A stretch of DNA of 55,069 nt from a virus, in the IMG/VR virus record IMGVR_UViG_3300046167_000515, positions 1-55,069 of that record; one strand, given 5' to 3'. Positions 1-55,069 of the stretch are shown here, one piece after another. The translations under genes were made by a program, and so were the position numbers. The notes under the pieces are model-generated. The model was not told the DNA's origin. It did no database searches and saw nothing but the letters and a program-made list of their open reading frames with translations. Each line of letters opens with the position of its first letter. Positions within the stretch are counted from its first letter, which is position 1.

Positions 1-3000
1 GTTTATAACGTTAGACAAATTAGACATAGCCTCTACTTCCTCTACGGTTGATGATCGCCCAAACTCAGAAACCCCAACCCAGTGCTCTAAAGAGCCTAAT
101 CCGTATGGCGTGTCCTTTACCTTCTCTTCTAATGCTTCAATAGCTTCTTGATACTCTAGCCTTCTTTGCTCCTTCATTTGAGCTGAAGCAGCATTATCCC
201 TTCTGTTTCTTTCTATGGCTCTTCCCTGCCAGGTTTTATACAAGGGTTCTAGCTCAAGAACCTCTCTGGTCTGTCTGTCCTTTTTTAAAGGAATTTTGCC
301 AAGCCTTACATTTTCTCCGTTTTCGTTCGTATAGTTCCAGCCACTTATAGCGTCTGTTTTTCCATTTCCTGTCTGTAAAACCCACCAGTTCCAAAAGTGC
401 CAGCCGTCTTGAAACTTCTTGCTCATGAAGTTTGCGCTCTCTTTCGTTTGCTGTATGTTGACAAACCTTTCAGTGTAGTTCATAGTGAACGGCTTGTCTG
501 GCATACCCATAAACCTAGAGTCTTTTTTAGCGTCTTCCGCTTGCTTTTTATCTTCTTCAGCTTCTTTTTGAACGAACGTATCGTAAATGTCAGTCCCGAA
601 AACGCTTTTAGTAGGAACCTCAATCTCCTTGAACCCAAGCTCTTCTAAAGAGGTAGATTGATTGAGATTGTAAAACTTTCCACCCTTAACTCTTAGCCCA
701 TACTGATACTGGCTTGTTTCACCTAGACCAAACTTAAGGCTCCCTTGAGTGTCTTTTGACGCCTGCTTAATCACCTCGACAACAGAAACTCCTACGATCT
801 TATCCTTAACATCCCCCATACCTTCAAGCATAGGGCTTTTTATTTTTTTAGATATAGCGTTACCAACCTCTTTAGGAACAACGGAAGACAAAGCCTTAAT
901 TATCTCAGATCTCTGGGCTATGGTTATTTGTGACGCAGCTAACTTACCATCCGACATTCCTGCCCACTCTTCCAGATACTGATCAACAGCCTCAGCTACT
1001 TCAGTTTTATTTTTAGCTTTCTTTAAAGCCTCAAAAGCTTCTGCAATTTCAATAGGGGCTTTTCTTAAGATTTCAAGATCTTCTTTTTGAGCCAAAGGCT
1101 CACCTACCACCTCTCCTTCTGGAAACCTACTGTCGAATCCTTTATTTTTAATTCTAGACAAAAACTCATCTCGTTCAACTGCGGAGTCAAAAGTAGCGGT
1201 TCTTTTCCTAACGCTGCTTCCTTTTTTAGCCCTAAAGCCATACTCAACTGTATATCCTGACTTACCTAAAGGAACGTACTTAGCCTTAGCTCCCTTGCCC
1301 ACCTTTTTAACCCTAAGGACCGACTCGTGAGCTTCAATTAGAGCTTTTTTTATTTTTTGTGCGTCTTTAGGGGATTTGGCAAGCCGAAGCTGAATGGCTT
1401 TAGTGGTCTCTAAAAAGAAAGTAACATTACTTCTGTTGGCGTCTTCACCCATCATTCTATAAAAAACAACCAGCTTGTTGTTTCCAGTTTCTGACAGAAG
1501 GGTGTTTACATTTCCTGAAATCCTAGATAGCGTTCCTGGATTACTCACAGCTATAACAGCTTTTCCAAACCCTTTATCCTCTAGCCTCATCTTTTCTGAG
1601 TCCATGCCAGACCTTATGAGGTAGTCTCCTACTTGGTTGTTTCCAACCTGGTCAAATGCAACGCTAATCGAGGCTAGTTCTTTTACGTTAAGCTGTCCGT
1701 TTTCGTCTATAAGACCACTGTCTTTTAGTATGTTTAGAATTTCAGGGTTATCAATCCTTACACTTTTGTCTAGCGAGCTAAGGTTTCCGTCTAGATTATT
1801 TGCTATCCTTGATATATCGGCTGGGCTTGCTGATTCTCTTGAGATTCCTTCCGCCTCAAAAGCTTGATCAACTACAGCTGAATCAAACCTTCTGTCTAGC
1901 TCGTTTAAGCCAGATTCTGTAAAGTTCTGATAGGTCTGAGCGTACTCAGAAATAACAGCCTGAGTAGTTCTTCCAGACTGCTCCATTTGAGCTGTAGTTC
2001 TTTGTGTACCGTACTTAGAGGCTACAGTTGAGGCAAGATCTTTTAAGGCTTGGTTTTTGTACTCACCTCCTTTTACTTCACGTAAAACACCAACTACAAT
2101 CTCCTCGTTTAAATCTTGGCTGTCTGAATACTCTCTTCTTCTGGCTTCAGCAATTCTTCTAACGTCCTCGTTGTCAGACTTTAACAGCTCTTCAGCCATC
2201 TCCTCAAAATTCATTCCCTTGCCGTTGACCTCATCGTGTATCATCTCCTCGATAACATCAAATGAAGAAGCCTCAGGAGACAGGTGTACCGTTCCCGTCT
2301 TTGGGTCGTATTGAGCTTTTGTTTGCAGTCTTTCAGCTGTAGGAACAGCCGCGAAGTAGTCCTCAAGGCTGTCGTATACCTCTACTTTGCCTCCAACAGT
2401 CATAGCTGCATATGCGGTAGTCGAAGAAACCTTATCTAAGTATCCTTGGATCTCCTCGACTGGTTTGCCGAACTTCTCAGCTAACTCGGAAGCTTCGTAC
2501 TGCGTATCCTGCTCTAGGTCCATTAGCGGCTTTTGCAGACTTTCTTTTACTGGTGCAACTTTATTTCCTTTGTTGAATTTATCCAAGTGCTCTCTAGCAG
2601 CCTCAAACGCAAGATCTAGCTGCTCTCTAGCTTTCTGTGCTTGCTGAGACAGTGCGACTCTCCCAAACTCTGCACTAACAAACTCTTCGTTTTTTGCGGC
2701 TTGCTCCAGGCCCTCAGCTGTACTTGCAAGCTCGACTAATGTGGCTGCTAGCTCTGGCCTACCTGAATTGGAAACCTCTCTTGCTATATCCCCCAACGCT
2801 TCATTAGAGACCTCCATCTCATTTATAGCTTCGTTGAGGTTGTTTTCTAGCACACGAATATCCCCTGGCTTTGAAGACTCAGATTTATTAGCGGTCTCTA
2901 GGGCTCTAGCTGCTTTCTCAACTTTTTCCTGATCGGCAAACTTAACGTTAGAAGCGGTAGCTATCGTGTTATTTTGATGAACAATTTCAAGGGTTTTAAA

Positions 3001-5067
3001 CCCAGTCTCCATTCTTTGCCATAAGGGTTGGTTTGCGTCCCCTAACTTATATGTAGTAGAGGCTCTTTGAGCTGCAAACATTGTAGAACCTATTGCTCCC
3101 CCTGAAATAGCCCCTGTCCCAGAGGCTTGTATTACTCTTGCGGCAGCCTCTGATGGGCTTATGTATTCTCCCTTTATAGAAGCGTCAGCCATAATGGTTA
3201 AGTATTCTGTGGTTGCCTCTTGACCCGCCTCAATACCAAATCCTTTGCCGCCCGCCTTTAAAGCTCCTTGAAAGAACCTGTCTAGAGCTATCTTAGACCC
3301 ACCCTTAGATATGCTCTTGGTGATAGTTAAAAGAGCGTGAGCACCAAAAGCCTCTGGAGCACCTTCAGCTAAACCAACAGCAAAAGAGTACCCTAACCTT
3401 TGTCCCGTTCCTTTTTTCACATCTACTCTCTGACCGTCTACAATCATGTAGCTGCCCTCTTCGTCTGACATTACGTTAGGCCCTTCAAGGGATGTGTACG
3501 CGCTCTGTATCTTAAGAGACATGTTTGCTCCGTCTACGGTCCTAGTGTCTAGCTTTTTACCGTTAACAGAAAACTCGTCAAAGTTTGAGTCTAGTTTAGA
3601 TTCCTGATACGCTTGAGCCCCAGCAAGGTAGGTCATCGCAGCAACGCTAGCGGTGGGGCTTTTTGTTACTGCTCCAACCCCAAGGGCCGCTAAAGTAAAC
3701 GGAAGGCTCTCTATGGCGCTTCCGACCATTGAGTCAATGTAGTCGAACAGCCTATCGCCTTCCAGGTTCCCAAACTTATAATCTTCGATTAGGTTAGAGG
3801 AGTATTGAGTCTTTTCAGATCTTAAAGATTCTTTTCTTAATCTCTGTTCAGCCATGAAATCTCTCAATGACTTTTCAGCGCCTGGTACTTGAGCTAATTC
3901 AGCTAACCCGCCCGCTCCAGCAGCAACAAGAGTAAGGGCAGATTCTAACATCAAAGCTAAGTCAATGGACCTGTCCTTGGTCGTGCTTGAAGGCTCTCCA
4001 AAAACACCATCATCATCTATATCAACTGGAATACCTCCTTTAAATAGGTCTTCCTCAATAGCCCTGACCCTTTTCACCCACTCACCCATTACTATCCTGT
4101 CTGAGCCCTCTGGTGCTTTTTGAACTTTTCTGTAAGCAGACTCAAGAGCCATCCTTCTTTCCCTTGCTATAGCGGTCTGCTGGTCATCAGCCATTTTAGC
4201 CATCATAGACGAAAGGGCTTCTTCATCCCCAAGACGTTTTAGCCTAGCCGACTGACCCTCCATCCTCATGTAAGAAGGAGCACCAGGCATTGGTGTGTCG
4301 TCTTGGTAGTTGTTCTCCTCTATCCTAGCTTTAATCTCTTCTAGTTTAGAAGCATCTTTACTTCTTAAATCAATGTACCCTTGATCCTCATTGACAGCTT
4401 TAGATAGTTTTTCATCAGTTAAAGCATCAAACAAAAACCTAGTGTCTTTTGGGTTTTTTTGATGAGCCCTGAATAGCGTTTCATATATATCCCTCTCTTG
4501 TGGACTAGCCTCGGATTCTAGCATCAATGCCTTTGCAGCCGCTCTTGCGTTACCCATGTATTCGAGGGATGTTGCGGCTGGACCCTCCATCATGGATTTG
4601 TATCGCTCGTAAGAATCTTTCCCTCTACCAAAAGCAACAACTCTTTTCTTGTCTGTTTTTACAGGAGCCCCAAAAAAAGATCTTTCCTCCTCGCTAAGAG
4701 GTAGCTCATTAACCGAAACCTCAGAAGGGATATTTGCTTTAATCTCTTCAACAGATGGTTTTACAAACATCTCCCCTTCTGGAGCAACTTCAACCTTTCC
4801 GTCCTGAAGGATTTTCTTTTGCAGGATTGTTTTGCCCTGATACCAGTCAAGTACGTCAGCGTTTGGGCTAGGAGATACAGACTCCGATAAAGAGTCTACC
4901 GATGCTAACCCCGTATCTACTAGGCTTGGATCGGGTTTTTTTTTTTGATTCCTGGCCTTTGAGACTTGATCGCTATTAAAGCCAAGGCTGTATAGGTTGA
5001 TGTCGTCCGCTCCCTGATCAATTAATTCATTAAGATCTGGAGGCGATGGAGTTGGTCCTGAATTCAT
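1..5067 (-). CDS. Giant polyvalent virion protein, N-terminal 1689 codons (runs off left edge)
   Basis: The frame is open from ATG at 5067 to base 1 and exits on a codon boundary. It joins in frame to the piece ending at 55069, giving 2745 aa in total. I recognise no enzyme with confidence. The N-terminus is Pro/Asp-rich. Around residues 440-640 lie Ala/Gly-rich hydrophobic stretches that may be membrane-active. Near residue 930 the pattern GTVHLSPE...EEMIHDEV resembles the zincin peptidase domains of large phage polyvalent proteins, but the first metal-binding His of HExxH is replaced by Glu. Charged coiled-coil-like segments follow. By analogy with polyvalent proteins it is probably packaged in the capsid and ejected with the DNA (inference). 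It follows two internal-protein-like genes and precedes the holin across the circular junction. Confidence 0.85.
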   Translation of the reverse strand, partial: MNSGPTPSPPDLNELIDQGADDINLYSLGFNSDQVSKARNQKKKPDPSLVDTGLASVDSLSESVSPSPNADVLDWYQGKTILQKKILQDGKVEVAPEGEMFVKPSVEEIKANIPSEVSVNELPLSEEERSFFGAPVKTDKKRVVAFGRGKDSYERYKSMMEGPAATSLEYMGNARAAAKALMLESEASPQERDIYETLFRAHQKNPKDTRFLFDALTDEKLSKAVNEDQGYIDLRSKDASKLEEIKARIEENNYQDDTPMPGAPSYMRMEGQSARLKRLGDEEALSSMMAKMADDQQTAIARERRMALESAYRKVQKAPEGSDRIVMGEWVKRVRAIEEDLFKGGIPVDIDDDGVFGEPSSTTKDRSIDLALMLESALTLVAAGAGGLAELAQVPGAEKSLRDFMAEQRLRKESLRSEKTQYSSNLIEDYKFGNLEGDRLFDYIDSMVGSAIESLPFTLAALGVGAVTKSPTASVAAMTYLAGAQAYQESKLDSNFDEFSVNGKKLDTRTVDGANMSLKIQSAYTSLEGPNVMSDEEGSYMIVDGQRVDVKKGTGQRLGYSFAVGLAEGAPEAFGAHALLTITKSISKGGSKIALDRFFQGALKAGGKGFGIEAGQEATTEYLTIMADASIKGEYISPSEAAARVIQASGTGAISGGAIGSTMFAAQRASTTYKLGDANQPLWQRMETGFKTLEIVHQNNTIATASNVKFADQEKVEKAARALETANKSESSKPGDIRVLENNLNEAINEMEVSNEALGDIAREVSNSGRPELAATLVELASTAEGLEQAAKNEEFVSAEFGRVALSQQAQKAREQLDLAFEAAREHLDKFNKGNKVAPVKESLQKPLMDLEQDTQYEASELAEKFGKPVEEIQGYLDKVSSTTAYAAMTVGGKVEVYDSLEDYFAAVPTAERLQTKAQYDPKTGTVHLSPEASSFDVIEEMIHDEVNGKGMNFEEMAEELLKSDNEDVRRIAEARRREYSDSQDLNEEIVVGVLREVKGGEYKNQALKDLASTVASKYGTQRTTAQMEQSGRTTQAVISEYAQTYQNFTESGLNELDRRFDSAVVDQAFEAEGISRESASPADISRIANNLDGNLSSLDKSVRIDNPEILNILKDSGLIDENGQLNVKELASISVAFDQVGNNQVGDYLIRSGMDSEKMRLEDKGFGKAVIAVSNPGTLSRISGNVNTLLSETGNNKLVVFYRMMGEDANRSNVTFFLETTKAIQLRLAKSPKDAQKIKKALIEAHESVLRVKKVGKGAKAKYVPLGKSGYTVEYGFRAKKGSSVRKRTATFDSAVERDEFLSRIKNKGFDSRFPEGEVVGEPLAQKEDLEILRKAPIEIAEAFEALKKAKNKTEVAEAVDQYLEEWAGMSDGKLAASQITIAQRSEIIKALSSVVPKEVGNAISKKIKSPMLEGMGDVKDKIVGVSVVEVIKQASKDTQGSLKFGLGETSQYQYGLRVKGGKFYNLNQSTSLEELGFKEIEVPTKSVFGTDIYDTFVQKEAEEDKKQAEDAKKDSRFMGMPDKPFTMNYTERFVNIQQTKESANFMSKKFQDGWHFWNWWVLQTGNGKTDAISGWNYTNENGENVRLGKIPLKKDRQTREVLELEPLYKTWQGRAIERNRRDNAASAQMKEQRRLEYQEAIEALEEKVKDTPYGLGSLEHWVGVSEFGRSSTVEEVEAMSNLSNVIN

Positions 5068-29338: not shown

Positions 29339-29629
29339 TTACTTAGAGAACCTTTCTGCGAATCCTCCTGAGTAGTCTTTGTCTTTTTCGATTTCTCCAT
29401 TGTCGTTTAGTTCTTTAACCATTTGTTCTAGCCTCTGGCGCTCCACCAAAAGCTCTTTACAGTCGATGGCAGTTTGCTTTATGGATTGGAGCTCGGCCTT
29501 ACGCGCGGATCCTCCAGCCTCAGGATCGACAGGCTTTTTTACCTCTTCGATCATGTTGTCGATAGCAACCTCCATGCTATTCATTAGCCTTTTGGCCGCC
29601 GATATAGTAGTGAATTCAAGCTTCGACAT
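29339..29629 (-). CDS. Small coiled-coil protein, 96 aa (C-terminus possibly frame-broken)
   Basis: Helical protein with AKRLMNSMEVAIDNMIEEVK and RQRLEQMVKELNDNG. After DYSGG the frame stops at 29339. Dropping one G of GGAGGA opens a frame reading SQKGSLSNPSGLVYWDDYDF and onward to a stop at 29248, inside the tRNA. That would make 126 aa, so an indel is possible but not proven. It overlaps the GroES-like gene by 14 nt. Confidence 0.6.
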   Translation of the reverse strand: MSKLEFTTISAAKRLMNSMEVAIDNMIEEVKKPVDPEAGGSARKAELQSIKQTAIDCKELLVERQRLEQMVKELNDNGEIEKDKDYSGGFAERFSK

Positions 29630-30200
29630 AGTATATATCGTCTAGTCTTGTCCTGTAGAACGTGTCTCCGTCGATCTTGAAGGAGTAGTCAGAGTCTTTC
29701 TTCACCCCAACTATATCTCCTTTCTTCACGCCTAAGTCTTTTAGCTTTTTATTTTCAAAAGCGACTTTAGCTGTTTTAACTTGAGGCTCCTTGAGTTTAA
29801 CAATTTGTATGCTACTTGAAGAAGCTTCGGGCTTTTGCTCAACATGACTGAGAATTGACCAGGAAGAGAGAGCAGAGATTTTACCAGTCCTTTTAGACTT
29901 GTAAGCAAAAGCTTGAGAACTAACGGCATGGTCAGGATGATAATGAACAACAAAATGATTGTCGTCAACAGGAAGAGGCTGAGCGTCAGCCATAACAACG
30001 AGGTGATGAAAGTAAAGGGTGTCCCCTTCTTCAACGCCTGTTTCGTGTTTCGCAGGAACAGCAACAACTTCTCCTTCATTTACTCTGTTTTTAAATGGTT
30101 CAAATTTGGTGTCTATATAAAGCTTTAGGCCACCCTCTGTTTCTATCTCGTCTTCAAACTTTTTTTCGAGATAAACAATAAAGTTATTTAGACTTTTCAT
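29616..30200 (-). CDS. GroES-like co-chaperonin, 194 aa
   Basis: The first 110 residues read like Hsp10: FIVYLEKKFEDEIETEGGLK, GEVVAVPAKHETGVEEGDTL and a roof/base-loop-like VDDNHFVVHYHP. A second half (KLKDLGVKKGDIVGVKKDSD) repeats part of the fold. T4 gp31 is the known precedent for a phage co-chaperonin replacing host GroES to fold the capsid protein. It lies in the packaging/structural operon, consistent with capsid folding. Confidence 0.6.
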   Translation of the reverse strand: MKSLNNFIVYLEKKFEDEIETEGGLKLYIDTKFEPFKNRVNEGEVVAVPAKHETGVEEGDTLYFHHLVVMADAQPLPVDDNHFVVHYHPDHAVSSQAFAYKSKRTGKISALSSWSILSHVEQKPEASSSSIQIVKLKEPQVKTAKVAFENKKLKDLGVKKGDIVGVKKDSDYSFKIDGDTFYRTRLDDIYYVEA

Positions 30201-30774: not shown

Positions 30775-31191
30775 ATGCCTAGATCAACAGTTAGGAAAAC
30801 AAGATTGTTTAGAGATGTTTCCATGCTTCCAGAAAAGTATGTGAAGCACAATTACTTAAAGCACATAAGGAGTGCTACAGACATATTTTTGGACGGAAGC
30901 GATCTAACCAGAAGCTACCTGTACTTTATGCTGTTTATATATGATCTTGAGTTCTTCACTATCTCCTGGGTGGCTAGCGAATATGGAATGAATAAGAAGA
31001 ATCTAGCTGACAGGATGATATACCCGCTAGTGTCTATGGGGTATATATACAAACACTTCGACAGACTCACTCCTTCGTCAACGGCTGATGATCACTTGTT
31101 TCGTGATGAGACAAAATATAACTACAGAGTTCGTTATGCGCTATCACAGAAAGGAAGGCTAGCGGTGCAGCGTTTTTACAACACCTTATAG
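30775..31191 (+). CDS. Probable winged-helix DNA-binding regulator, 138 aa
   Basis: RSYLYFMLFIYDLEFFTISW followed by GMNKKNLADRMIYPLVSMGY and KYNYRVRYALSQKGRLAVQR reads as helix-turn-helix plus wing, MarR/PadR-like. The ATG at 30775 is preferred; a TTG at 30748 would overlap the opposite-strand promoter. It is one of only two plus-strand genes within the late block and ends overlapping the M15 gene tail-to-tail by 16 nt. It may regulate the late switch (inference). Confidence 0.6.
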   Translation: MPRSTVRKTRLFRDVSMLPEKYVKHNYLKHIRSATDIFLDGSDLTRSYLYFMLFIYDLEFFTISWVASEYGMNKKNLADRMIYPLVSMGYIYKHFDRLTPSSTADDHLFRDETKYNYRVRYALSQKGRLAVQRFYNTL

Positions 31192-31637
31192 TACACGCCT
31201 TTTTCATCTCGGTAGGCTCTCTTGATCTGACATCTATTCCCTCCGCCCTCTTTGAATGACACATGTATCCAGGCAGGGTTTTCGTCATCACCGAACTCCC
31301 AGATCATTTGGTCCCACTCAAGGTTCTTCTTAATGAAGTCAAATATCTCTGAGTTGTTAACCCCCCCATACATATCGGCGTCTATATCAATAGCTTCCCC
31401 GATCATATGCTGAGAGTATTTACTCCCTCCAATCGCTTTGTTCAACTCCTTTGATCTAAACCCAGAGGTAACCCCGATGGGTACACCGAAGTGATCACGC
31501 ACTGGCTGAAAGATATGGTCCGCTACAGCTTGGAGGTTATGTATAGTCCACTTATCTGGGGTGTTGTCTATCCCCTTTCGGGTCGCGGTGTTTGATTTCA
31601 CCACCTCCTTTAACGTAAGGTTTTTGCTTAATTTCAT
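31176..31637 (-). CDS. M15-family cell-wall peptidase (endolysin), 153 aa
   Basis: Shows GVTSGFRSKELNKAIGG, then SQHMIGEAIDIDAD, the SxHxxGxAxD zinc motif of the M15 peptidases, and a second ligand in WIHVSF. No signal peptide, so it would need the holin for release. It cleaves peptidoglycan cross-bridges during lysis. It is separated from the holin gene by half the genome but in the same late direction. Confidence 0.85.
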   Translation of the reverse strand: MKLSKNLTLKEVVKSNTATRKGIDNTPDKWTIHNLQAVADHIFQPVRDHFGVPIGVTSGFRSKELNKAIGGSKYSQHMIGEAIDIDADMYGGVNNSEIFDFIKKNLEWDQMIWEFGDDENPAWIHVSFKEGGGNRCQIKRAYRDEKGVYYKVL

Positions 31638-50143: not shown

Positions 50144-50818
50144 CTACTTGAATGGAAAGGGGCTTCGGCCCCTTTCTAGTTTCAAGACTGGTCGTGGCTC
50201 CTCCCTATAAAAAGGATCAAGTTCGGCACCGTAACATATTGTACCCCACTGACCTAACATAATTTGAAAGTCAATTACGTTAAAGTATCCATTGCCGTTT
50301 AGGTCTCCAGGGGTCCAGTATAAGTCTTGCCAGTTTTCCAGCATGAGCATAAGGTCAACCATACCCACTACGTGGTCTCCGTTTATATCCCCTAAACAAT
50401 AAGGGTCTTGATCGGTAATTCCTGGACGAGAGATTGGCAGTATGTAATGTATGCGCTCAATCTGACCAAGAGTAAAGTTCGTCCTACACGAATCGGGATA
50501 ATAATCCATGTGGTTATTTGTTTCGTAGCCATACAAAGCTGGAGGGCATATAGGGTTCTCGCAACTAAAGTTTAACTTTGTGGGTGGAGTATCGCAAACG
50601 TAGTCGCCTGACTCATCGCAAGGCCCTAAGTCCTCACCACAGAAATCTACGTTTTTGAACACGTGTTGCAACCCGACATAGTGTCCTACTTCGTGTATTA
50701 GAGTTTTGTTTTGATCTCTGTCGTCATACGAAAGCTGTGGACCGTAGTTCCCGAATACATCAGACCTAACCCACACACCGTCCAGCTCGGTGCTAGAGTG
50801 TGTAAGACGTCCAGGCAA
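50144..50818 (-). CDS. Secreted metalloprotease, catalytic and dockerin-like piece (frame-broken)
   Basis: Contains HEVGHYVGLQH, the extended zinc motif HExxHxxGxxH of metzincins (pappalysin/M43 type), then a Met-turn-like NNHMDYYPDSCRTNFTLGQI. The C-terminus has two Ca-binding dockerin-type repeats, DINGDHVVGMVDL and DLNGNGYFNVIDF. It joins to the 50793-51278 piece after removing one base in GGGTTT (about 50817), giving 377 aa. The listed start is a TTG with no support. Confidence 0.75.
   Translation of the reverse strand: MPGRLTHSSTELDGVWVRSDVFGNYGPQLSYDDRDQNKTLIHEVGHYVGLQHVFKNVDFCGEDLGPCDESGDYVCDTPPTKLNFSCENPICPPALYGYETNNHMDYYPDSCRTNFTLGQIERIHYILPISRPGITDQDPYCLGDINGDHVVGMVDLMLMLENWQDLYWTPGDLNGNGYFNVIDFQIMLGQWGTICYGAELDPFYREEPRPVLKLERGRSPFPFK
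50155..50176. terminator. Hairpin at convergence of early and late blocks
   Basis: Perfect GAAAGGGGC-TTCG-GCCCCTTTC. It lies 45 nt after the reductase stop and inside the last codons of the protease gene. Likely bidirectional stop, though T-runs are short. Confidence 0.6.
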
Positions 50819-51278
50819 ACCCTAGTATTCCGTTACAAAACTTAGGGAATATATGCACGTTCATGTACACCTCTCTATCCCATACTAAATCCTCTACGTA
50901 GGCATCCATCCATTGGAACCCGCTCTGGCTATACGGTACGCATACGTTGTTTTGCTCTAAGATTACAGGGGCGCCCCAGAACTCATCAAAGTCATGGTAC
51001 ATGATCGAGACAAGATCGAAGTTAATCATAGCCTCGTCGAACTCCTCGTTCAGATGCTCGTGAGCGTCCATGATGATGTCCTCAGGTATGTAGCTATCTG
51101 GAAAGCTGTCGGTGTAGTATATGTGGTATACGTAATCTATCTCCTCCCACTGCATAGGCTCTGGTACGTACCCCATCATTCTAGGCTGAGTGGTACTACC
51201 TCCGAATACAGCGCAAGAATCCTGCCCTACAATCACGTACTGTGAGAGCAGGCAGAGTGTAAGGATCACAAACCTCAT
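50793..51278 (-). CDS. Secreted metalloprotease, signal peptide and propiece (frame-broken)
   Basis: Signal peptide MRFVILTLCLLSQYVIVGQ followed by DSCAVFGG. The body has IDYVYHIYYTDSFPDSYIPE and ends FPKFCNGILGFAWTS, where the frame is lost just before the zinc motif. Export through the host inner membrane is expected. Its ATG overlaps the upstream small membrane gene by 4 nt. Confidence 0.75.
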   Translation of the reverse strand: MRFVILTLCLLSQYVIVGQDSCAVFGGSTTQPRMMGYVPEPMQWEEIDYVYHIYYTDSFPDSYIPEDIIMDAHEHLNEEFDEAMINFDLVSIMYHDFDEFWGAPVILEQNNVCVPYSQSGFQWMDAYVEDLVWDREVYMNVHIFPKFCNGILGFAWTSYTL

Positions 51279-51484
51279 TGCATCTGGTTCTTAGCTAAAA
51301 GAAGTTTAACCTCTTGAATCTCCCTTAGAAGCTGCTTCATGTCTTCTTTAAACTCTGAGTTGTCCGCCTCAAGAACAGCAACACGAGACGAAAGCCTGTT
51401 GTAGTCTGATTGAAATTTTATCCACCCACCGACCAAAGCACCCGCCACTGCTAAAAATTCAAAATGACTTAAGTTATCGGGCAT
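51275..51484 (-). CDS. Small membrane-anchored coiled-coil protein, 69 aa
   Basis: One N-terminal hydrophobic helix (FEFLAVAGALVGGWIKF) then a coiled-coil (RLSSRVAVLEADNSEFKEDM). Directly follows the holin with a 1-nt overlap. Could be a spanin-like or holin-modulating protein (inference). Confidence 0.65.
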   Translation of the reverse strand: MPDNLSHFEFLAVAGALVGGWIKFQSDYNRLSSRVAVLEADNSEFKEDMKQLLREIQEVKLLLAKNQMQ

Positions 51485-51912
51485 TATCTCCTGGTTTTTT
51501 CTACGGTCCTACCAGCAAAGTAAGCTCCGAATACGGTTAACATTAATATCTCAAGCAAAGATACGTAACTATCTTTTACGTTAAATGGCTGATTATCAAG
51601 GCTGTCAAGAAACATTGTTGTTACAAAAACGACTATTAATACAATTAACATAACAGGTCTAATAAGTTTCGCTAGCTTAATATCACTGCTCATGTCCGCT
51701 TGCCAACGCTCTGTCACGTTCTTTTGAAACTGAACCTCTGCGTCTACCTTAGCCTTTGCTTCGGCTGGATCAATGTCTGGCTCTTTCTTCAGTAGGTTCT
51801 TGACAAGACCAAGACCCCCTCTGTCTGGAAGTAGGTCGCCTACCGTGTCAAGCACTCCAGGAGCCTTGGCTTTTAGCCAGGTTCCGAGTTTAGTGTCCTT
51901 AATCTTCTCCAC
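51484..51912 (-). CDS. 3TM-type holin, 142 aa
   Basis: ERWQADMSSDIKLAKLIRPV, then LIVLIVVFVTTMFLDSL, SYVSLLEILMLTVFGAYFAG and RTVEKTRR match the 3TM holin family (PF11351-like). The N-terminal 70 residues are soluble. GTG 51912 overlaps the stop of the polyvalent gene and is preferred over an ATG further upstream inside that gene. It makes holes for the M15 peptidase. Confidence 0.8.
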   Translation of the reverse strand: MEKIKDTKLGTWLKAKAPGVLDTVGDLLPDRGGLGLVKNLLKKEPDIDPAEAKAKVDAEVQFQKNVTERWQADMSSDIKLAKLIRPVMLIVLIVVFVTTMFLDSLDNQPFNVKDSYVSLLEILMLTVFGAYFAGRTVEKTRR

Positions 51913-54900
51913 GTAGTTGTTTGTATTTTTTATTAAACCCAGCCATAGTCTTTCTTTGAACTTCGTACATCTCAAATATTCTATTCTGTCTGTCGATGTA
52001 GTTCTCTATATCTCTAGCCTTCTTTACTTCAGCTCGAATTTGCTTAAGCAGCTTGTCTGATTTTTTAAGTTCTTCGTTAAGAGATTGAATCCCATTATAT
52101 CTTCCTTCTTCTCTTATGATTTTATTCTCCCTTATTTCTCTGAATAGCTGCTGAACTTCTTTTTGGTTTTCCTTAAACTTTTCTACATCGTAGAAAGGGG
52201 AAGCCTCTCCGTATATCTTCTTTACGATAGGCACATCGTTATACCTGATTTTAACCTCTCCGTCTTCTCCAAAGCCATGAGCTAACCCGTTGGCTATACC
52301 TTTGATGTCCTTAGCTTCTGCGGCCTTCTTAGCTGACCTTCTAGTCATTTCAAAAAGGTTTCTTGCTTGCTCCCCTGACTCTAAAATAAAGTCGCCTGAT
52401 CCTCCGATCATGTACTCGAAAAGGTACCAAGAGTAGTCAGGGTTGAAGTCAGCCCACCCAGACTTAAACTGAGAGCCTCCAGTAGATTCGTTCATGTGCT
52501 CAAAGAACTCCTGCATCTTTTGAGGGGCTCTAAATGACAACTCAGAACTAGGGACTGGAGTTCCAAACGGAAGCTGAGACCCAGTAACAGGAGCGCCAAA
52601 GAATGTTTTATTCTCAGCCATCTCAACAAAAGGCTTTATTACCGTAGGAGATAAAGATCTTAGAACAAACGGTCCTGGGTTTTCGCCTATACCACCAAAC
52701 GATATAGGTGAGAATGACGTAAAGGCTGTTGTTCCCAACATCATTAGGGCTGAATCTGGCGTTCTATTTCCTGTAGATACCTCAGCTAAAGACATGCCCA
52801 TGTTGTTAAACAGGCCATACCCATATGGTAAAGGAACCTTTAGGAAGTCGTCTTTACCTTGACCGTAACAAAGAATCATGTTCCTTGATTTGTCGTACTC
52901 AGACAGCTTGTTGTACCACAACTCATCATCCTCTGGATCCCTACCGCTAACAGCTAGGTTCAGTAGGGTCAACATACCTGAGAATCCAGCCATACCCGCA
53001 GCTATCTTTTGAGCTCCTGTAGCTCTCTCGTTCCACTTTCTGGTTGATCCATCAGGTCGCTGAGCTGGCTTAACACCCTTGAGAGAGTTGTAAACCCTTA
53101 GGTTACCTTGAATGGCAGCGTTAAAGAACAGATAGATGGAGTTAAGAACTGGTCCAGCCTCTCCTGATCGGTTAAAGTTTACCGTTATGTTCTTTGAAAA
53201 CACGGCAGCCTTTTGAGCAGACGCCCCTCTATTTCTTGCAGTTACATAAGCTGAGAGACGTATGCTGTTTTCAAACGCTTCGTTGACACCTTCAACCCAA
53301 TTAAAGAACTGCTGAGGCTTAGAGAACAAAGCCTCTCTAATAGCCTTACCTTTCGTTAAGTCGTCCGCATCTGTAGATAGTTTAGCTTCTATCTCTTTCA
53401 GGTCCTCTATGTAGCTCCATCCTGTTTGACCACCAGAAGCTTTCCATTCATCTACCCAAGACTGGGTTTCTGCGTCCATCTCTCTACCCAGAGCGTTGGT
53501 AGACAGCATTGATTTAAGGTACTTAAATGTGCTTCCATACAATTCCTTTTTAAATCCTTTGGTGTCAATATCTCCTAGCTCGCCTTGCTCTAGGTCGGCC
53601 TCAGCACTGTAAAGCGCACCCCCAAGGTCTCTAGCAAAGTTTGACACAAAGAAGTTAGGATCCCACTGAGTAAACACGCCTCTTAGCCACCCTACTGGAG
53701 CTCTCATCATTCTGATAAAGCTGTTGGATGACTCCATCGTCATTCCGTTCAAGGTAGCCGCGTAGTAGGGGTCTTTAAAGTATATGAATTCCTGTTTTCC
53801 GTTAATACGTACTGCCACAGTCCTAGGGTCAGCCTCCATCTCCATCATGGACATTGCTGTCTGTCTTCCATTCTCATCCAGTCTAGTCAATGGTGACATC
53901 TGGTTTACAACAGACCAAACATCCTCCATTGGATTCTTTTTAGCTAGCTCGTGGAGAGACTGAAGGGTTCTGTTCTTTTCTGCCCATTGGTGAGTGACAG
54001 CATTCTGCATCACAATGTTAGCCAGCACGTTAGCCGCCTCTGACTCACGACCTATAGCAGCTTTCGTTTTGGTGCCGTATACGCTCATGCCAGCACCTCC
54101 AGTAGGGTAGCTGTTAGAGTTTAAGTCTAGCTCATCTTCAGCAAACCCCTGAAGCGGAACGTAGTTCTTGTACAAAGCGTTCCACGCATCAAGTCTGTCT
54201 TGGCTCTCAAGACCCTCGTCAAGCATAGTCTTTCTGGTGTCATCAATAACGTCAGTAAACATCTTAGTGAGCTCTCTGAACTCCTTGCTATCTAACCTTG
54301 AGATAATCTCATTGGCAACCTCAGTCTCCATACCAGATCCTGCGTCAAGGTCTGGTCTTGTCTTGCTGATCTTTTCGTTTCTTTCCTGAGCGTGTAGAGC
54401 ATACATGAACTGGCTTAGGTCCTTATGAGAAACCCCAAACTCCTTCATTTTCTCCCTTGCATTATTCATGACAACCTCTAGGTCATCCATAGCCTTTCTG
54501 GAGCGACCATACATAAGCTGTTCTACCTCGCTAAACCGCTGAGACTCAGGAACTTTCTTGCCTTTACTTTTCTCTATAGATTCTTGAATTCCTATTACGT
54601 CTGCGTATTTATTTACGAGCCATGTGTTTAGGAAGTCAACAGACCCTTGGTATCCTCCTCTTTCTTCCTTTAGTTGATAGAACCTAGGCGGCATAATTCG
54701 TGAAGACTTTGCATCACTATCATCATATTTGCGGCCAGCCTCTAGGTCAGCCACAGCCTGTCTTAGACCGTCTTTACTATATGGCTTTTTAAATCCTTCA
54801 GCAAGGCTTGCACTTGAAGAAGGAAGAGAAATGTTCACTCCTAGCTTCCACCCTCTGTCTGTCTTCTCTACGGTATGAGACATAGCCTCAGACGTGTTGG

Positions 54901-55069
54901 TCAAGAAGTTATACCTTCTGTGAAACTTCCTCATCTTACCAAGGAATAGCGTCTCGCCGTTAACAAAAGAAGACGCAAGCTCTACGGAAGTAAAATCTGA
55001 AGTATCGAGCTCACTATACGTTCTAGGCTTCCACTCAAGTTTACTACCCGTTTCTAAGCTGTTAGCTTT
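51899..55069 (-). CDS. Giant polyvalent virion protein, C-terminal 1056 aa (enters from right edge)
   Basis: Open from base 55069 on a codon boundary and continuous with the 1-5067 piece (junction SNVIN-KANSLE). It contains the region typical of large polyvalent proteins (LPD38-like, from memory): FTQWDPNFFVSNFARDLGGA, FNWVEGVNEAFENSIRLSAY, KNITVNFNRSGEAGP and IYLFFNAAIQGNLRVYNS. A Gly/Ser/Phe-rich membrane-like zone follows, then a long Lys/Glu coiled-coil C-terminus. Probably ejected with DNA. Confidence 0.85.
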   Translation of the reverse strand, partial: KANSLETGSKLEWKPRTYSELDTSDFTSVELASSFVNGETLFLGKMRKFHRRYNFLTNTSEAMSHTVEKTDRGWKLGVNISLPSSSASLAEGFKKPYSKDGLRQAVADLEAGRKYDDSDAKSSRIMPPRFYQLKEERGGYQGSVDFLNTWLVNKYADVIGIQESIEKSKGKKVPESQRFSEVEQLMYGRSRKAMDDLEVVMNNAREKMKEFGVSHKDLSQFMYALHAQERNEKISKTRPDLDAGSGMETEVANEIISRLDSKEFRELTKMFTDVIDDTRKTMLDEGLESQDRLDAWNALYKNYVPLQGFAEDELDLNSNSYPTGGAGMSVYGTKTKAAIGRESEAANVLANIVMQNAVTHQWAEKNRTLQSLHELAKKNPMEDVWSVVNQMSPLTRLDENGRQTAMSMMEMEADPRTVAVRINGKQEFIYFKDPYYAATLNGMTMESSNSFIRMMRAPVGWLRGVFTQWDPNFFVSNFARDLGGALYSAEADLEQGELGDIDTKGFKKELYGSTFKYLKSMLSTNALGREMDAETQSWVDEWKASGGQTGWSYIEDLKEIEAKLSTDADDLTKGKAIREALFSKPQQFFNWVEGVNEAFENSIRLSAYVTARNRGASAQKAAVFSKNITVNFNRSGEAGPVLNSIYLFFNAAIQGNLRVYNSLKGVKPAQRPDGSTRKWNERATGAQKIAAGMAGFSGMLTLLNLAVSGRDPEDDELWYNKLSEYDKSRNMILCYGQGKDDFLKVPLPYGYGLFNNMGMSLAEVSTGNRTPDSALMMLGTTAFTSFSPISFGGIGENPGPFVLRSLSPTVIKPFVEMAENKTFFGAPVTGSQLPFGTPVPSSELSFRAPQKMQEFFEHMNESTGGSQFKSGWADFNPDYSWYLFEYMIGGSGDFILESGEQARNLFEMTRRSAKKAAEAKDIKGIANGLAHGFGEDGEVKIRYNDVPIVKKIYGEASPFYDVEKFKENQKEVQQLFREIRENKIIREEGRYNGIQSLNEELKKSDKLLKQIRAEVKKARDIENYIDRQNRIFEMYEVQRKTMAGFNKKYKQLRGED

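Follow-up and report, generated by a model that had tools for sequence, protein, structure and literature searches.

The window, that is, the whole 55,069-nucleotide stretch of the IMG/VR virus record IMGVR_UViG_3300046167_000515, carries on its minus strand (51278-50144) a split protease gene whose two halves lie in different frames of the open reading frame (ORF) list for the window record. The 5' half (50793..51278, 161 aa; ORF call and alignment with intact relatives) encodes a signal peptide, a short pro-segment and the N-terminal part of the catalytic domain before it ends in the frame break, and the 3' half (50144..50818, 224 aa; ORF call and Pfam) encodes the active site, the Met-turn, a dockerin-like domain and the tail GAELDPFYREE. 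Judged from the ORFs and the alignment, the break corresponds to the overlap of both frames (50793..50818, minus), where relatives are continuous. An earlier note on this DNA had placed a gene with a broken frame at 50144-51278, in a lysis-side position. These coordinates are right, with the gene on the minus strand; the break is present in the record, where the N-terminal frame ends at 50793 and the C-terminal frame opens at 50818; and a holin and a small Rz-like membrane protein do lie directly upstream of the protease. The Rz-like protein (51275..51484, minus, 69 aa) has an N-terminal membrane helix and a coiled coil by eye, with weak PHROG spanin matches (E 0.012-0.017), and its stop is overlapped by the protease start by 4 bases. 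The holin lies at 51484..51975 (minus; PHROG 3427, E 8.6e-21), and the endolysin (31176..31637, minus; PHROG 894, E 1.5e-38) is located away from it in the window genome. At 51899..55069 (minus; ORF, Pfam and PHROG) lies the C-terminal region of a giant polyvalent protein (LPD38), whose frame is cut off by the window end and probably resumes at 5067-1. Seen by eye at the 3' end of the protease gene, between it and a convergent RNR gene, a GC-rich palindrome (50157..50174) is possibly a two-way terminator; the terminator scan did not call it.

The gene product is a pappalysin-family (M43) metzincin according to Pfam, PDB sequence and fold comparison, which bears out the M43/pappalysin-like assignment made in the earlier note. 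Pfam places Peptidase_M43 on the C-terminal half of the window gene (E 1.4e-12, 48.2 bits, cut-off 23), with a weak match on the N-terminal half (E 0.081), and six short-form relatives that were tested score 49.7-68.3 bits against the same cut-off of 23. Intact short-form relatives are 334-397 aa long. The expected HExxHxxGxxH motif is present as the zinc-binding motif HEVGHYVGLQH in the downstream frame (50663..50695, minus; translation and Pfam), followed by the Met of the Met-turn NNHMDYY (50507..50509, minus; translation and alignment). Among the 35 representatives (<95% identity, from 49 loci with a complete frame), on which the linkage counts below also rest, the zinc ligands and catalytic Glu (H194, E195, H198 and H204) and Met256 are invariant (35/35). 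At the eighth position of the motif HExxHxx[G/N/D/S]xxH, 17 of the 35 have G and the other 18 have S. The PDB sequence matches are ulilysin, mirolysin and PAPP-A/PAPP-A2, followed by a cellulosomal protein that is reached via the dockerin part (E 0.009). The unicellular pappalysins (M43B) include ulilysin from Methanosarcina acetivorans and mirolysin from Tannerella forsythia. An AF2 model of the intact relative L019 has a mean pLDDT of 71.9, with values under 50 in segment 16-36 (the pro-segment) and in most of 206-263, and superposes on ulilysin with Z 18.6 (rmsd 2.9, 209 residues) and on mirolysin with Z 18.4, compared with Z 12.2 for the best non-pappalysin metzincin. Both share with the phage protease the catalytic fold, the extended zinc motif, the Met-turn and a Cys in a short N-terminal segment, at 23-26% identity over the part aligned with the L019 model; unlike them, the phage protease has an extra dockerin-like domain and the GAELDPFYREE tail, and its gene sits in phage lysis cassettes. 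The eighth motif position is N in ulilysin and D in mirolysin, the latter according to PMC6949598. As a member of the M43 family, the phage protease would be expected to show calcium- and zinc-dependent proteolysis.

The dockerin-like domain is a pair of calcium-loop motifs (DINGDH..., DLNGNG...; 50258..50395, minus) that falls just below the Pfam cut-off for Dockerin_1 (E 1.3e-4, 22.5 bits, cut-off 22.9). Among short-form relatives, the four that matched Dockerin_1 score 15.4-22.7 bits, and L072 and L087 have no listed match. The two DxNxDG repeats described earlier hold as two Asp-rich loops in a dockerin-like tail, but neither is literally DxNxDG. A cohesin partner had also been suggested; a search covering the window record found no cohesin domain (PF00963). 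The tail around GAELDPFYREE that comes after the dockerin-like domain is conserved in 32/35 representatives, the DPFY core is absent from all other proteins in the searched loci, and the tail is possibly a retention or binding signal.

At the other end of the protein, the proposed signal peptide is present by inspection as a signal-peptide-like start, MRFVILTLCLLSQYVIVG (51225..51278, minus), with the cut expected before the Q that follows, and similar starts are seen by eye in the representatives. Eleven Cys are invariant among the 35 representatives, an odd number, and one of them, Cys22 (51213..51215, minus; 35/35), lies just past the expected signal cut and is a candidate cysteine switch, a function suggested by mirolysin (PMC6949598). 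In mirolysin, as that source describes it, Cys23 blocks the zinc and cleavage is preferred before basic residues. Position 33 is Arg or Lys in 27/35 representatives and is a possible activation site. The residue after Cys22 is A, V, I or Y in 34/35 and G in 1/35, so that, unlike in the mirolysin switch described in PMC6949598, Cys22 stands outside a Cys-Gly motif. Since a Cys close to the N-terminus is invariant, the short form may still use a cysteine-switch mechanism, and by analogy with mirolysin the phage protease may combine such a switch with self-activation.

Compared with six intact close relatives, the window shows a one-base length change where its two frames overlap. A single open frame over the part present is found in 59/60 related viral loci, 10 of the 59 being cut by a contig end, and only L073 is broken. 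A programmed frameshift was considered and rejected: there is no conserved shift, 59/60 relatives keep one frame, and such a shift is unlikely because the relatives have none. For both halves of the window gene, comparison with eight intact relatives gives dN/dS of 0.03-0.13, equally low as among those relatives (sixteen comparisons, of which one was saturated and gave no value). Because dN/dS is this low in both halves, the break is, judging from these comparisons, recent or a sequencing or record error, not old decay. The earlier note had allowed for a decaying gene if the frameshift were real and lacked a shift site; the answer here is partial, in that the record has a break without a conserved shift, but purifying selection acts on the two halves and most copies are intact. 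When near-identical records were sought, an exact 48-base pattern beside the break gave zero matches, and a gapped pattern at the break matched only a contig already known to be intact (L006/L022). In the broken relative (L012/L073, IMGVR_UViG_3300050343_000155), the protease gene at 3823-4927 contains many small indels, and the four neighbouring genes compared contain none. This would fit a protease that is dispensable, though decay or poor sequence are alike possible.

The combination of features had been called unusual, but the gene is not a lone oddity: the first relative search returned 12 related viral loci and the alignment search 60, which makes it a widespread viral family. A search for a cultured phage with the gene gave only one weak match, to an unannotated fecal fragment (MT837139). 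In a hand-picked, non-random set of 39 records, 27 bear M43, with one copy each (21 short, 6 long). The large terminase of the window matches 118 records, all at <60% identity, and the matches with named hosts are Flavobacterium, Cellulophaga, Tenacibaculum, Maribacter and Azobacteroides phages. Since the terminase is closest to Flavobacterium, Cellulophaga and other Bacteroidota phages, the host is taken to be a member of the Bacteroidota, in line with the Bacteroidetes host group named earlier. A quick tree built from 85 catalytic domains (midpoint root, no bootstrap, several long branches flagged) puts 36 short viral forms on one side of a branch (SH-aLRT 93) with three long viral forms beside them (SH-aLRT 98); the 39 sampled proteins from Bacteroidia and the remaining six long viral forms stand apart from the short group. 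The short form is hence a virus-only clade in this tree. A profile search finds M43 proteins in 151/395 Bacteroidia genomes at E<=1e-20. For host relatives of the short form, a single-protein query returned 0 matches and an alignment query one distant match, from Saprospiraceae (22%). Capture of the gene from a host, as had been proposed, is plausible as an old event because M43 is common in Bacteroidia, but not as a recent one, the short forms being separate from the 39 sampled Bacteroidia proteins.

Linkage to lysis genes extends well beyond the window. At least one of holin, Rz-like, amidase and DUF5675 genes lies within 3.5 kb of the protease in 32/35 representatives, the exceptions without a scored lysis gene nearby being L033, L041 and L058 (3/35). 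Within that distance the 35 representatives have a holin in 27, one Rz-like type in 12, another Rz-like type in 7, an amidase in 6 and DUF5675 in 8, where the second Rz-like type and DUF5675, to which PHROG and Pfam give no function, are scored as lysis-type solely from their position and anatomy. Among the 37 loci where the gap to the upstream gene was measured, 20 have an overlap of exactly 4 bases. The same protease occurs beside different endolysin-type genes (amidase; DUF5675) and in different gene surroundings, and since the surroundings beyond the cassette vary between locus groups, the protease travels with the lysis genes across phage types. It is not obligate for such lysis, because 52 of the best 80 of 349 loci with the same holin have no M43 match. 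In 6/35 representatives a 104-106-aa exported protein lies between a second Rz-like gene and the protease (L028:1800-2120, L040:2051-2371 and others); it is thioredoxin-like by eye and has no Pfam or PHROG match.

Type IX secretion (T9SS), which the earlier note had raised for the window protease, found no support: the sorting domain PF18962 is present in 0/22 records (the window and 21 short-form records), compared with 7/18 other records searched, and TIGR04183 and TIGR04131 are absent from L019 and L087. Long M43 proteins of related phages (635-721 aa where complete) have tails that look type IX-like by eye, and NCBIfam gave no type IX confirmation for the three long M43 tails tested. A scan by simple rules of our own, which did recover the lambda Rz1 control, covered -3 to +4 kb around the gene in 33 loci and the window stretch and found no ORF with a lipobox, the protease itself included. 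Protease-less holin loci likewise have no convincing lipobox ORFs, and therefore the absence of a spanin lipoprotein is not specific to protease loci. The idea that the protease specifically replaces a spanin is weakened by this, as the protease-less loci concerned carry the same holin.

The gene next after the holin encodes another exported protein in 13/52 protease-less loci, counted with a crude signal-peptide rule and manual reading among the 52 from the best 80 of 349 holin loci. Directly after the holin, protease-less relatives can carry large exported proteins of 687-844 aa with GCTDPxAxNYNPxAN-like repeats (L105:6423-8543, L106:6547-8964, L129:6423-8954 and L146:6547-8607), after which comes a 347-348-aa exported protein. 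L105 passes the NCBIfam cut-off for type IX type A sorting domains (27.1 against 23 bits) and L146 fails it (20.3). The exported proteins near the holin in L107 (6780-7793) and L092 (6646-7551), both on the minus strand, reach 33.4 and 33.7 bits for type B, just under the cut-off of 35, and the one in L107 adjoins a long M43 gene. The pattern suggests a 'slot' for exported proteins beside the holin. A broader version, which we think rather unlikely as a whole, is that Bacteroidota phages have an 'export slot' co-translated with the holin and filled with interchangeable cargo, latent M43 proteases in one branch and large type IX cargo in others, and that in the protease branch a proteolytic last outer-envelope step would replace the lipoprotein spanin.

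The reading we prefer, with about even confidence, is that the gene encodes a virus-specific M43 protease of the lysis cassette, a Sec-exported latent zymogen that would cut envelope or surface proteins, or debris proteins, at lysis. It builds on what the sequences show, namely the family with its motifs, their conservation, the purifying selection, the linkage to the cassette and the overlapping start codons, from which we infer the export, latency, timing, substrate and benefit. The protease would be translated jointly with the holin and Rz-like genes in podovirus-like Bacteroidota phages, and the host's Sec pathway would carry it into the periplasm. There, Cys22 would block the zinc and keep the enzyme latent until self-cleavage frees its activity. 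Because it has no type IX sorting tail, the protease is expected to stay periplasmic, and it would be retained there until holin and endolysin open the cell. The active protease may then cut envelope or surface proteins, so that the outer layers give way or virions are freed from debris. If true, this would add to holin and endolysin a third type of lysis enzyme, conserved and wired into the cassettes of many uncultured phages; little is known of how Bacteroidota phages open the outer membrane and the surface layers. Our limited search of the open-licence PMC literature turned up no pappalysin-family protease described for a phage lysis cassette. What is new is the short M43 form, virus-only in our tree and usually within a lysis cassette.

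Other readings share much of this evidence. A protease placed in the lysis cassette might instead shave receptors, trimming host surface proteins so that sister virions no longer adsorb to the dying cell, its debris or neighbours (superinfection exclusion), and the other exported holin neighbours of related phages, some with type IX sorting matches, also point to the cell surface; we consider it fairly unlikely, given that the short form, for want of a type IX sorting domain, could get to the outer face only once the cell has lysed. An auxiliary role in nutrition or on the matrix, as an exoprotease taken from a host and kept to degrade extracellular protein or biofilm matrix, would agree with the abundance of M43 in the Bacteroidia genomes and with the sense in which PMC8776804 discusses a metallopeptidase of the marine phage Molly. 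The tight lysis linkage with its 4-base overlaps and the grouping of the short forms apart from the sampled host enzymes speak against such a role and make it distinctly unlikely.

That the protease follows the giant polyvalent gene, with which it shares its strand, could indicate a virion component, packaged in or attached to particles and acting at entry, but the signal-peptide-like start seen by eye would send the protein out of the cytoplasm, the site of virion assembly, and we regard this as very improbable. For the window genome itself, the gene may be decaying and yield no product: its frame is broken where relatives are continuous, hence with no programmed shift, and the second broken locus, L073, has many indels. 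Against this, dN/dS in the two halves matches the low level of the intact copies, and 59/60 relatives are open over the part present, and we consider decay improbable, too.

For the preferred lysis-protease reading, the closest experimental parallel is the phage-derived Mtz/Tim pair of Listeria monocytogenes, which, in the part of the source available (PMC8235301), brings about lysis through an active metzincin where phage lysis is normally hampered, its expression raising free virions about five-fold. Like the phage protease, Mtz/Tim involves a secreted metzincin tied to phage elements, a likeness drawn here without sequence comparison, but its host is Gram-positive, it has a TIMP-like lipoprotein partner, and the same part of PMC8235301 describes neither a dockerin nor a holin-coupled gene. 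Phage-encoded type IX cargo, in Cryophage (PMC7468147) and as the BACON proteins of crAss-like phages (PMC6949934), likewise consists of exported proteins of Bacteroidota phages; these proteins, glycosidases and others, have type IX sorting domains, whereas the short M43 form does not. The cassette resembles the lambda-type holin/endolysin/spanin cassette in that the holin and Rz-like genes are clustered with overlapping starts, but the gene after the Rz-like gene encodes an exported protease in the window cassette and the lipoprotein Rz1 in lambda. A 2025 survey states that Bacteroidetes phages use one-piece spanins only (PMC12596118).

Elsewhere in the window genome, the two parts of the giant LPD38-type open frame (1-5067 and 51899-55069, minus) are in matching frame at both ends and together amount to about 2,745 aa, and both match L002-L004 in the same order. 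Since the frame matches across both ends and the order is the same in L002-L004, the 55,069-base record probably represents a nearly complete genome in circularly permuted form. Near the endolysin gene it also encodes a GroES-like co-chaperonin of 194 aa (29616-30200, minus; PHROG 13932, E 5.9e-41).
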